Source of the DNA: Desulfobacterales bacterium
Lineage (GTDB): Bacteria; Desulfobacterota; Desulfobacteria; Desulfobacterales; JAAELO01
Assembly (NCBI GenBank): GCA_024226555.1
Contig: JAAELO010000296.1
Span: 1 to 34,131, forward strand
Reading direction: 5' to 3'
Length of the DNA stretch: 34,131 bases
Shown here in pieces: positions 4,669-26,342 of this stretch. Positions within the stretch are counted from its first letter, which is position 1, and each line of letters opens with the position of its first letter. The translations under genes and the position numbers were made by a program. The notes under the pieces were generated by a model that was given only the letters and a program-made list of their open reading frames with translations, made no database searches and had not been told where the DNA came from.

Positions 4669-4762
4669 AGGAAATCTCTAATAACTGATCTTTTTGCGAA
4701 ACACAGATTTATTTTGTTATGCCTTGTTTTTCATCAAAAATCCTACTTATTAGAGATTCCCT
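4669..4762 (+). mobile_element. MITE-like element, 94-bp deletion derivative
   Basis: Ends are AGGAAATCTCTAATAA and TTATTAGAGATTCCCT. The interior keeps TTTTTGCGAAACAC and TTATGCCTTGTTTTTCATC from the 131-bp copies but lacks about 37 bp in the middle. It lies about 100 bp after the thioesterase gene. Confidence 0.8.
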
Positions 4763-11461: not shown

Positions 11462-11592
11462 AGGGAATCTCTAATAACTGTTCTTTTGGCAAAATACTTT
11501 GTTATTTCCAAAAAAAACTGTAATAAAATCGGCTCGTTATTTTTTGAAATGCCTTGTATTTTATCCAAAATTCTAATTATTAGAGGTTCCCT
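11462..11592 (+). mobile_element. MITE-like element, full length 131 bp
   Basis: AGGGAATCTCTAATAA and TTATTAGAGGTTCCCT differ at one pair. The interior is very close to that of the copy near 14.0 kb and has the same length. It lies 45 bp upstream of the solute-binding pseudogene start, where its promoter would be. Confidence 0.88.
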
Positions 11593-13953: not shown

Positions 13954-14084
13954 AGGGAACCTCTAATAACTGCTCTTTTTGCGAAATACTTCGTTATTAC
14001 CAAAAAAAACTGTTGTAAAATAAGCTCGTTATTTTTGGTCATGCCTTGTATTTCATCAAAAATTCTAATTATTAGAGGTTCCCT
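13954..14084 (+). mobile_element. MITE-like element, full length 131 bp, perfect 16-bp terminal repeats
   Basis: AGGGAACCTCTAATAA and TTATTAGAGGTTCCCT are exact complements. The interior holds two direct CGTTATT motifs and an A-tract. It starts 11 bp after a dispersed repeat and ends 36 bp from the stop of the solute-binding gene on the other strand. It is the best type copy of the family here. Confidence 0.9.
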
Positions 14085-20040: not shown

Positions 20041-20056
20041 AGGGAACCTCTAATAA
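20041..20056. mobile_element. Solo MITE terminal repeat
   Basis: AGGGAACCTCTAATAA is a perfect copy of the terminal repeat, 11 bp after the helicase stop. No complementary end is seen before glyQ. Confidence 0.6.
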
Positions 20057-20138: not shown

Positions 20139-20300
20139 GTAAACGCACGAATTCCGTCCTTATTCTAATATTATTTAAATTATTAATTATTTTAGGTGAA
20201 TAATTTCTTATTTAATGATATTCTTCAAAGTTTAATGCTATTATTACAAGGTCTTTTTATTATGAAGCCCTTTACCTTCAATTATTACTGAGGAATGAAA

Positions 20301-21182
20301 ATGAATTTTCAGGAAATTATACTTTCTTTGCAACACTTCTGGGCAGAGAAAGGTTGTGTACTTATTCAACCAATAGACCTTGAAGTTGGCGCGGGAACTT
20401 TTCATCCAACGACATTATTAAGAGCACTGGGGCCTGAACCATGGAAAGTTGCATATGCTCAACCATGCAGAAGACCAACCGATGGCAGATATGGTGATAA
20501 TCCTATGCGACTTCAACACTACTATCAATATCAGGTTATTATTAAGCCATCTCCTGACAATATTCAGGAACTATACCTTGAAAGCTTAAAGAACCTGGGA
20601 ATCGATTCTCTTGAACATGACATTCGCTTTGTTGAGGATGACTGGGAATCTCCAACATTAGGAGCATCCGGTCTTGGCTGGGAAGTCTGGTTAAATGGAA
20701 TGGAAGTTACTCAGTTTACCTATTTTCAAATGGCTGGAAGTATTGAGCTTTCACCTGTTTCTGTTGAGATCACTTATGGTCTTGAACGTATAGCAATGTA
20801 TCTACAGGAAGTCGATAGTATCTATGACCTAAAGTGGAATGATCAGGTTACATACAGAGAGGTCTATCATCAGCAGGAAGTTGAGCAATCAACTTATAAT
20901 TTTGAGATTGCAAATGTTGATATGCTTCTGGACCTTTTCAATAAATATGAAAATGAAGCTGAAGCCATTTTAAATAAGAACCTTGTTATTCCAGCGTATG
21001 AGTATGGTCTTAAGTGTTCACACACTTTTAACCTTCTTGATGCAAGAGGAGCAATAAGTGTTTCTGAAAGAACGAATTATATTGCCAGAATAAGAAATAT
21101 TGCAAGGGCATGCTCCGCTCTCTATCTAAAACAAAGAGAAGAGATGGGGTTTCCAGCGTTAAATATAATGGATGAGAAATAA
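20301..21182 (+). CDS. glyQ: Glycyl-tRNA synthetase alpha subunit
   Basis: The protein has 293 residues from the second of two close ATGs, the one with GAGG at seven bases. The family sequence is unmistakable: [14 protein letters not shown], then [19 protein letters not shown], then YVQPxRRP-type [15 protein letters not shown]. The alpha subunit carries the class II catalytic site that forms glycyl-adenylate and charges tRNA-Gly in an alpha2beta2 enzyme. Length is normal for the family. glyS follows in the same direction, but a 131-bp MITE fills the gap, starting four bases after this stop codon. Confidence 0.98.
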
Positions 21183-21185
21183 TAA

Positions 21186-21316
21186 AGGGAATCTCTAATA
21201 ATTAGAATTTTGATTGAAATACAAGGCATAAGAAAAAATAACGAGCTGGTTTTACAACAGTTTTTTTTCGAAATAACGCCGTAGTTCGATTAAAAGACAG
21301 TTATTAGAGATTCCCA
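21186..21316 (-). mobile_element. MITE-like element, 131 bp, inserted between glyQ and glyS
   Basis: GGGAATCTCTAATAA and TTATTAGAGATTCCC are exact complements. The interior is the reverse complement of the copy near 14.0 kb. It starts 4 bp after glyQ and ends 21 bp before glyS, so it is transcribed within the operon as a long hairpin. Confidence 0.9.
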
Positions 21317-21337
21317 TAATACAAAAGAGGTTTTGTA

Positions 21338-23416
21338 ATGAATACTCTATTACTTGAAATAGGATCAGAAGAGATACCAGCAGGATATATTATCCCTGCA
21401 TTAAAAGCCCTGCTTGCAAATATTGAAAAACAATTAAAAGATCAAAGAATTTCTCATGGTGAATCAAAATATTATGGAACACCGAAAAGACTTACCATTG
21501 AAATAAAAGATGTTGCAGGGATGCAATCAGCACTAACTTCAGAAGTAACAGGACCTCCTGAAAAAATTGCTTATGATGCTGATGGAAACCTGACAGTACC
21601 CGGAAAGAAATTTGCTGAAAAACTAGGTATTGCTGAAAGTGAGATTGTCTTAAAAGAGACCAAGAAGGGTAAATATCTCTCTGCAATTGTAGAAGAAGAT
21701 GTTTCAGACTCTAAGGATATTCTTGCGAATATACTGCCAGCTGCAATTCTTGCAACTCCATTTCCTAAAACCATGAAATGGGGATCACAGGATGTTTTTT
21801 TTGCAAGACCGATTCGCTCAATATGCGCTATTTTAGGAAGTGATGTTGTTCCTTTTAAGATTGGTGATATTGCAAGTAGTAATAAGATTTATGGACATAG
21901 ATTCATGAGTCCGGACCAAATAGAAGTTACTGATGTTTCAAAATATAGTGATCTTTTAAAAGACGCATTTGTAATAGCAGATATTGAAGAGAGAAAAGCT
22001 CTTGTTGAAACTGCTATTAATGAAAAAGCCAAGAGCATTAATGGAAATATTCTTCCTGATGATGAGCTTGTTGATATCGTTACCAACCTGATTGAGCAAC
22101 CGGAAGTTACTGCCGGAAAATTTGATGATGAGTTTTTAGAACTTCCGGATGAGGTTCTTATTACTACAATGAGGGAACACCAGAAGTATTTTGCAGTTAC
22201 TGATGATAGCGGAAAACTCTTGTCAAATTTTATTGTGGTGAATAATACCAAAGCGAAAGATATGGATCTTGTTTCCAGGGGACATGAAAAAGTTATCAGA
22301 GCAAGGCTTGCTGACGCTCAATTTTTTTACAGAGCTGACCTTGAGAGATCTTTTGACGACTGGATAAAAAGCCTTAAGGGTGTTATGTTCCAGGCAAAGC
22401 TTGGTTCAATGTACGATAAAAGTAAGCGAGTTGCCATACTTGCAAAGTTTATTGCTGAAAAAGTAAAACGATCTGCTGAAGAGACAGAAAATGTAGTAAG
22501 AGCGGCTGAAATATGCAAAGCTGATCTTGTAACATTTGTAGTTGATGAATTTCCTAAGCTTCAGGGTGTAATAGGAAGAATTTATGCAGAGAAAAAGAGT
22601 GAGAATAAAGATGTTTCTACTGCGATCGAAGAACATTACAAACCAGTTCGCTCTGGAGGAGACCTTCCATCAACAATAACAGGTTCAATACTTTCAATAG
22701 CTGATAAAATTGATACTATTTGTGGATGTTTTTCAGTTGGACAGATTCCAACTGGTGCATCCGACCCATATGCATTAAGAAGACAGAGTATTGGTATTAT
22801 CCAGATTATTCAAAAAACCGGTTTAAAGATTTCTTTAAAATCAATTCTGGATGAGAGTACTAAGCTTTACAATATCGAAGGAGATAGTAAAGATAAGATT
22901 GTAACTAATGTTTACTCTTTTATGCAAAGCCGTATTGATCATCTGCTTTCAGAGGATGGTTTTTCAAAAGATATTATTGCTGCAGTTACCAGTGTGTCTG
23001 TTGATATGCTTGATGAAGTAAGAAGTAAAGTTGAAGTACTTCAAAAGCTCACTGCAAAAGATGATTTTGAACCACTTGCTGTTGCTTTTAAGAGGGTTGT
23101 GAACATCATAAAGAAAGCCGATTCTCCCGATTCTTTTGATATTGATCAAACTCTATTTGAACATGATTGTGAAACTAATCTTTACATCAAATTTAAAAAT
23201 ATAAGTAGTGAAGTAACTAAAGCGCTTGAAGTTAGTGATTTTGGGACATCTCTTTCACAAATTGCATCATTGAAAGATAGTGTGGATGACTTTTTCGATA
23301 ACGCTATGGTTATGGTAGATGATATGAAAATCAAAAACAACAGGTTAGCTCTTTTAACAAAGATCTCAGACCTGTTTGCTAATATTGCAGACTTTTCAAA
23401 AATTACAACAAAATAA
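21338..23416 (+). CDS. glyS: Glycyl-tRNA synthetase beta subunit
   Basis: This 692-residue protein has the usual family length. It starts MNTLLLEIGSEEIPAGYI, the hallmark of bacterial GlyS, with AGAGG upstream of the ATG. Family blocks include FPKTMKWG, FARPIRS, TTMREHQKYF and the HD-like domain near GGDLPSTITGSILSIADKIDT, then ASDPYALRRQ. The C-terminus is a helical tRNA anticodon-binding domain. It partners GlyQ in charging tRNA-Gly in the cytoplasm. The ribosome-binding site lies just outside the inserted MITE, so translation initiation should be independent of glyQ. A small protein gene follows after 12 bp. Confidence 0.98.
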   Translation: MNTLLLEIGSEEIPAGYIIPALKALLANIEKQLKDQRISHGESKYYGTPKRLTIEIKDVAGMQSALTSEVTGPPEKIAYDADGNLTVPGKKFAEKLGIAESEIVLKETKKGKYLSAIVEEDVSDSKDILANILPAAILATPFPKTMKWGSQDVFFARPIRSICAILGSDVVPFKIGDIASSNKIYGHRFMSPDQIEVTDVSKYSDLLKDAFVIADIEERKALVETAINEKAKSINGNILPDDELVDIVTNLIEQPEVTAGKFDDEFLELPDEVLITTMREHQKYFAVTDDSGKLLSNFIVVNNTKAKDMDLVSRGHEKVIRARLADAQFFYRADLERSFDDWIKSLKGVMFQAKLGSMYDKSKRVAILAKFIAEKVKRSAEETENVVRAAEICKADLVTFVVDEFPKLQGVIGRIYAEKKSENKDVSTAIEEHYKPVRSGGDLPSTITGSILSIADKIDTICGCFSVGQIPTGASDPYALRRQSIGIIQIIQKTGLKISLKSILDESTKLYNIEGDSKDKIVTNVYSFMQSRIDHLLSEDGFSKDIIAAVTSVSVDMLDEVRSKVEVLQKLTAKDDFEPLAVAFKRVVNIIKKADSPDSFDIDQTLFEHDCETNLYIKFKNISSEVTKALEVSDFGTSLSQIASLKDSVDDFFDNAMVMVDDMKIKNNRLALLTKISDLFANIADFSKITTK

Positions 23417-24476: not shown

Positions 24477-24534
24477 AGGGAACCTCTAATAATTAGAATT
24501 TTTTCGGTCAAAAAGCAGTTATTAGAGGTTCACT
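24477..24534 (-). mobile_element. MITE-like element, 58 bp, between convergent genes
   Basis: AGGGAACCTCTAATAATTAG and TTATTAGAGGTTCACT fold into a hairpin with one mismatch. Only about 22 bp separate the ends. It occupies most of the gap between the nucleosidase and pyk stops and could terminate both transcripts. Confidence 0.78.
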
Positions 24535-26094: not shown

Positions 26095-26342
26095 GGGAAT
26101 CTCTTCTTCTAAGTAACACTTTTTATATATTATGTGTTATTAGGCAGTTAGGTTCCAGAATATCTATTCTGGAGGAGTCGCTAATAACTGCCTATAAAAC
26201 AAAAGGCTTTAGTTTTGTTTGATCGAACTACTTAGGTTATTTTAAAAGATAAAACTGTGTAAAATCGCCTCGTTATTCTTTCTCATACAGAGATTTTATA
26301 AACGCTGTATTTCAAACAAATTTCTAATTATTAGAAGTTCCC
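26095..26342 (+). mobile_element. Composite MITE region upstream of pyk
   Basis: A full element (26173-26342) begins AGGAGTCGCTAATAACTG and ends TTATTAGAAGTTCCC. It is longer (170 bp) than the 131-bp type and shares ACTGCCTATAAAAC and CTTTAGTTTTGTTTG with the copy at 2051-2130. Just before it, TCCAGAATA-TC-TATTCTGGA forms a 9-bp-stem palindrome (26154-26173). Further left, AGGGAATCTCT (26095) may be a second degenerate end. Confidence 0.65.

Follow-up and report, generated by a model that had tools for sequence, protein, structure and literature searches.

What is a long inverted repeat doing between the two genes of glycyl-tRNA synthetase, and how did it come to lie there? In the Desulfobacterales assembly GCA_024226555.1 we analysed one stretch of 34,131 nt (contig JAAELO010000296.1; the window), in which glyQ, encoding the alpha subunit (20295–21182, + strand; PF02091, 500.7 bits), precedes glyS, encoding the beta subunit (21338–23416, + strand; PF02092, 652.6 bits). 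The nearest named GlyQ is that of a Desulfobacula MAG (79% identity). As set out below, the 155-nt spacer between the two genes (21183–21337) very probably records the landing of a non-autonomous transposon (MITE), mobilised in trans by an IS5-type enzyme, which acts as a passive spacer in the operon and belongs to a hairpin family spread through the phylum.

The element between glyQ and glyS

The focal element measures 129 bp (21187–21315), two fewer than the 131 bp given in the initial annotation, and is placed on the + strand by the sense strand of the family model R1 (146.9 bits on + against 55.2 on −). Its left terminal inverted repeat, GGGAATCTCTAATAA (21187–21201, +), is paired at 15 of 15 positions with the right repeat (21301–21315, −), which is its exact complement, so that the perfect ends first described were confirmed. 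The element begins 4 bp after the glyQ stop codon and is followed, 11 bp further on, by the GAGG Shine-Dalgarno motif of glyS (21327–21330, +), in agreement with the original placement between the end of glyQ and the glyS ribosome-binding site. In the predicted fold, a small 6-bp ACAAAA/TTTTGT hairpin (21321–21336) starts 5 nt past the element and holds this GAGG in its loop. The inner core, approximately delimited by alignments and fold (21208–21295, +), comprises 88 nt here and about 100 nt in other genomes, and contains a second stem, the conserved motifs AAGGC and AACGC and, in the focal copy, a shortened apical part. The whole element is predicted to fold at −44.1 kcal/mol (z −8.4; none of 200 shuffled sequences folded as well), which bears out, as a prediction, the long hairpin proposed initially.

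The sequences bordering the element are ATAATAAA on the left (21179–21186, +) and ATAATACA on the right (21316–21323, +). This copy has no exact 4-bp target duplication, with TAAA on the left against ATAA on the right. The 8-bp flanks agree at seven of eight bases, a likeness to which we attach no evidential weight because it is reached by 0.4% of random pairings and by 1 of 74 copies.

Both genes are present in all seven nearest relatives (L017–L023), with gaps of 2, 73, 2, 1, 69, 202 and 54 bp, respectively. The comparison of glyQ–glyS spacing that the initial annotation had called for thus gives 1–2 bp in three of the seven (L017, L019 and L020), and the insertion sits where these three have almost no spacer. 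This empty site is deduced rather than seen in a sister strain, since the short-gap relatives share only 75–79% GlyQ identity and the second nearest relative (L018) has a 73-bp gap. The remaining four have spacers of 54–202 bp that lack an element of the focal type; long glyQ–glyS spacers without the element are also tolerated. When the family model was run against the seven loci at E up to 10, the only match was one of 11 bits in L021, outside the gap.

The repeat family and its candidate transposase

The exact end GGGAAYCTCTAATAA occurs 1217 times (605 + 612) in the 7.69-Mb assembly, compared with no occurrence of the reversed-pattern control, and 26 ends with up to three mismatches are found in the window against 2.2 expected. 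The focal sequence itself recurs at no fewer than 40 other places in the assembly, with 82–93% identity over most of its length. A sample of 1,483,539 bases, chosen partly for holding matches, yielded 241 paired elements, usually 128–130 bp long, of which 239 had both flanks; an exact 4-bp target duplication borders 113 of these 239 copies, compared with 6.0% for mismatched flanks, the commonest being TATA, TTAA, TTTA and TAAA. Insertion would accordingly duplicate 4 bp of a TA-rich target. Terminal inverted repeats, target duplication, a short non-coding sequence and many dispersed copies are the hallmarks of a MITE, and the family displays all of them. The family, its target duplications and the 1–2-bp gap in three of seven nearest relatives together back the earlier view that a mobile element interrupts glyQ–glyS.

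Other copies in the window were recognised from end pairs and the family model, together with flanks where a duplication is given. Two 129-bp copies carry TGAA duplications (11463–11591 and 13955–14083, both −), a diverged copy spans 130 bp (8–137, −) and a longer diverged copy 170 bp (26173–26342, −). Copies with internal deletions are 92 bp (4670–4761, −, TTTA duplication), 78 bp (2052–2129, +) and 56 bp (24478–24533, +) long, and the end search found a solo end upstream of glyQ (20042–20056, +). In the copies at 26173–26342 and 8–137 the end has diverged to AGGAGTCGCTAATAA, and the TATTCTGG/ATTCTGG flank ahead of it is identical in both; the copy at L097:72 has this flank too, and a sub-family with a longer end is possible.

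A candidate for the mobilising enzyme comes from G001, a genome of the same order, in which an insertion sequence (L293/L311) with the ends GGGTTTCTCTAATAATT and GGGCACCTCTAAAAATC and TTAA on both sides encodes a 339-aa IS5-family transposase (NF033581, 1.1e-83; PF01609; PF05598). Counting G001, homologues were found in three of the eight genomes searched: L312 in G190 (75% identity, one internal stop, similar ends, flanks TATA/TTCA) and L313 in G338 (70% identity, similar ends, ATAA on both sides). None was found in the other five (G000, G110, G485, G441 and G505), although G110 has GG-ended elements. Because the ends of the focal family closely resemble these IS5-family ends in related genomes, an IS5-type transposase, encoded in relatives, most likely cuts and pastes the element in trans. 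Like the family, IS5-family elements of the NF033581 type have ends of the form GGG..CTCTAAxAAT and a 4-bp TTAA/ATAA duplication; unlike it, they carry a transposase and have no hairpin core.

We also considered an autonomous copy in this genome, and searches of PF01609 hits, transposase homologues and long interiors gave none. A search of the assembly for the IS5-type transposase gave no homologue at 1e-10, the assembly's six PF01609 hits all lack such an end at up to three mismatches in their loci, and in the 1.48-Mb sample no long interior is repeated behind unpaired ends, apart from self-overlaps of one place. The same sample also holds two long pairs of ends, 563 and 3195 bp, whose 4-bp flanks are equal. 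The partner transposase of this genome's elements has been lost, lies outside the assembled sequence or has diverged beyond recognition.

The ends of the family are therefore similar, not identical, to those of an autonomous element in related genomes. The interior is not derived from the insertion sequence, as it would be in a type I MITE: on inspection, the end and the few bases that follow it are common to the two, but not the core, and the family for this reason fits type II. In the available text of PMC10969869, type II bacterial MITEs are described as derived from insertion sequences, with homology confined to the ends. The present family is like them in being short, A+T-rich and non-coding, with many copies, inverted repeats, target duplications and IS-like ends; unlike them, it has a conserved, covarying hairpin core under different ends and duplication lengths, across the phylum.

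A hairpin core under changing ends

The covariance model R1, built from 26 copies of this genome and five of G001, recovered related elements at E up to 0.001 from 139 of 291 genomes of the order, nearly all full-length among the matches listed. A second model, R2, which was trained on the finds of R1 (20 sequences of other genomes and five of this one), was positive in 206 of 291 genomes of a class draw, where all matches listed came from the same order, and in 64 of 296 genomes of a phylum draw, of which 57 belong to other orders; the two draws overlap and both include this genome, and the E-values are rough. Six genomes, with 150 candidates scored in each, hold at least 41, 60, 34, 18, 44 and 97 matches, respectively. 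The sole check outside the phylum, a set of 80 glyQ loci (624 kb, by their titles mostly from other phyla), gave one match, L044, at E up to 1. Rfam models at their gathering thresholds gave no match in the window; the focal element had only sub-threshold matches, as did, in a scan of seven loci, the elements belonging to L216 and L219. Narrow queries against plasmids, phages and IMG/VR, made with the element of L198, the element of L194 and a single exact pattern, were negative. In the titles and abstract openings that we searched, with subscription journals mostly outside reach, there was no pointer to this family or to MITEs in Desulfobacter, Desulfobacteraceae, Deltaproteobacteria or Desulfobacterota, nor to glyQ, glyS and MITE together. 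MITEs of Thiomargarita are the subject of PMC4853749, as far as its accessible text goes.

Among 81 copies of other genomes, which are mainly top-scoring ones with several taken from each genome, the ends fall into classes that go with duplications of different length, with chance rates taken from mismatched flanks. Ends starting with GG have an exact 4-bp duplication in 20 of 26 cases and a 6-bp duplication in none (chance for 4 bp, 6.6%), whereas ends starting with GTG, or one-base variants, have an exact 6-bp duplication in 23 of 49 and a 4-bp duplication in none (chance for 6 bp, 3.2%). GAG-start ends show 5 bp in two of six, 6 bp in one and neither in three. Different classes occur within single genomes (G185 and G317). 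The end-trimmed cores nevertheless match across classes: in a 67-sequence set, L265 (GG) and L239 (GTG) are 89% identical over 85 bp (E 1e-27). One conserved core of about 100 nt thus rides on different ends, with target duplications of different length. Because the focal core matches the other cores only weakly (best E 0.003), we place the focal family in this group through a chain to G001 (52 bp at 85% identity) and through the models.

Several further structures accompany these classes. Four elements of G185 (L271–L274) form a related hairpin with GTTTCCATCCATAAAT ends that keeps the outer stem and a GCGT motif; its top differs, being GC-rich with GTAC...GTACGCC repeats, and the apical part also varies. 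Palindromes of 35–45 bp that consist of ends only are found at L278 (G048:C1:1183760–1183795), L284, L285, L300 and L304, two of the five with exact duplications (L278, 36 bp, TATTTA; L304, 35 bp, TAAA); they stem either from bare ends that transposed or from elements whose core was lost through slippage. No transposase could be assigned to the GTG and GAG classes: five large open reading frames scanned near unpaired GTG ends comprise one AICARFT/IMPCHase, one peptidase M24 and three that match no Pfam family.

Symmetry of the ends of a transposon is expected, because one transposase must bind both, but symmetry of the core is not. In a set of 25 sequences the hairpin has 57 pairs, with 91.6% of cells paired and 34 pairs changed on both sides, and its covariation score is 0.367 against 0.123 (sd 0.008) for shuffled and 0.05–0.08 for slid alignments, in a structure drawn from one member and with shuffles that ignore relatedness. 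RNAalifold on a 31-sequence set was more modest (25 pairs, four with changes on both sides). The same stems also covary when subfamilies of this genome are compared. The two strands are not equivalent: of 66 copies of other genomes, all 66 have the more stable fold on the model's strand (mean −58.4 kcal/mol, against −45.8 for the complement), and this genome's copies average −37.9 in sense and −32.8 in antisense. In the core, departures from Watson–Crick pairing are GU rather than AC in a ratio of 43:15 after merging similar sequences (p 0.0003) and 44:16 with the one-member structure, an asymmetry that is exposed to the relatedness of copies and to strand-biased C-to-T mutation, which is a possible cause of it. 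The excess is smaller when pairs are taken from antisense folds (30:13, p 0.014), stands at 32:18 in the ends (other genomes, p 0.06) and is weak in this genome's copies (terminal repeats 20:21, inner stem 18:7).

The uniform strand preference and the excess of GU over AC in the core suggest, at the level of predicted folds, selection on one strand in single-stranded form, as RNA or as ssDNA. We tentatively advance a wider reading, which may well prove wrong: the core of about 100 nt would be the functional unit, its hairpin selected single-stranded on one strand, moving across the phylum as it takes on the ends of two or more, probably three, kinds of transposon (marked by 4-bp, 6-bp and perhaps 5-bp duplications), with the glyQ–glyS copy as one landing. 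Integron attC sites are a precedent for hairpins that act as ssDNA.

Possible consequences for the operon

Crude calls of open reading frames (90 aa or longer) place the 149 sampled copies of 115–135 bp as follows: 76 between same-strand genes, 30 between divergent genes, 21 between convergent genes, 12 at edges and 10 in or over open reading frames. The focal copy is among the 20 same-strand copies that leave no more than 150 bp of other spacer. Copies show no orientation bias, with 43 sense and 33 antisense in this genome (p 0.30; 12:8 in the tight gaps) and 17:22 in other genomes (from 74 copies, including 13 at edges or over open reading frames). Such a bias had been considered as a possible pointer to a function in operon mRNA, and the 30:17 seen in the first half of the sample was gone in the full sample.

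Two observations concern gene ends. Among codirectional copies, the 4-bp duplication is kept in 2 of the 13 that lie within 5 bp of the upstream stop codon and in 43 of the 63 others (p 0.001), a tentative contrast whose idea was drawn from part of the same data. An element landing after TA completes a TAG stop with its first G (G000 junctions, e.g. L131:8903 and L114:11376); the first base is G in 80 of 81 copies of other genomes, and a G-start may reduce the harm of insertion at gene ends.

Could the copy nevertheless have been adopted as an intercistronic control, its hairpin being cut by an enzyme of RNase III type or shielding half of the message, and so setting the GlyQ:GlyS ratio? The low z-score of the predicted fold is consistent with this, and among 138 copies the focal one has the 19th-ranking fold on the sense strand. 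There are also precedents in print: the available text of PMC2229807 and PMC10969869 describes bacterial MITEs as hairpins in transcripts, with RNase III cutting Correia elements and ERIC changing transcript levels in Yersinia. ERIC and Correia/NEMIS resemble the focal family by description, as hairpin MITEs of roughly 100–160 bp with reported effects on mRNA processing or stability; unlike it, they are reported with TA-type ends and from Neisseria and enterobacteria (PMC2229807). Cleavage or stabilisation of the mRNA by the focal hairpin is possible. As an account of why the element is there, however, adopted control seems unlikely: nothing examined sets this copy apart from hundreds of others, orientation bias is absent, no close relative shows the insertion kept, and four of the seven nearest relatives have spacers of 54–202 bp that lack it. 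The altered subunit balance proposed in the initial annotation accordingly found no support, the copy being one of hundreds that show no preferred orientation. Partial termination within the hairpin, also suggested there, would lower glyS and is very improbable; a long stem closed by G–C pairs and a T8 tract within the element would suit it, but the stem is followed by ATAATACAAAAG rather than a T run, and a simple consensus scan of the element found no promoter-like or terminator-like site. That the spacer is old host sequence, a leader or riboswitch, can be dismissed despite the missing clean duplication and the 54–202-bp spacers of four relatives with both genes, since the same sequence stands at so many other sites in the assembly, which contradicts it, and no Rfam model matches at gathering.

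The parsimonious reading is that of a tolerated MITE insertion that is read through. RNA polymerase would continue across the element, probably a passive spacer in the operon, so that the mRNA would carry it folded into a 129-nt hairpin, and glyS would be translated from its own Shine-Dalgarno motif. Any shift in the GlyQ:GlyS ratio, through loosened coupling or cutting by a double-strand RNase, would be a side effect and not the element's reason to exist. A known precedent is the MITE Chunjie of Geobacter uraniireducens (Chen et al. 2008), of 178–235 bp and inserted in an operon, whose description bears a title stating that the insertion leaves operon structure undisturbed (as given in the available text of PMC10969869); the likeness to the 129-bp focal element is one of description, both being MITEs within an operon.

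The focal insertion is well supported and, as a MITE lying in an essential operon, ordinary; the surprising part is not the insertion itself but the family, with its conserved, strand-asymmetric hairpin core on different transposon ends. MITEs are usually viewed as deletion leftovers whose ends are best conserved; in this family, comparison between genomes shows varying ends around a hairpin middle that is kept. Should this be confirmed, the family would be an example, open to testing, of a selfish structured core able to change from one transposase to another. The hundreds of copies, some of them within operons, offer a natural experiment on the tolerance of long hairpins in essential mRNAs.
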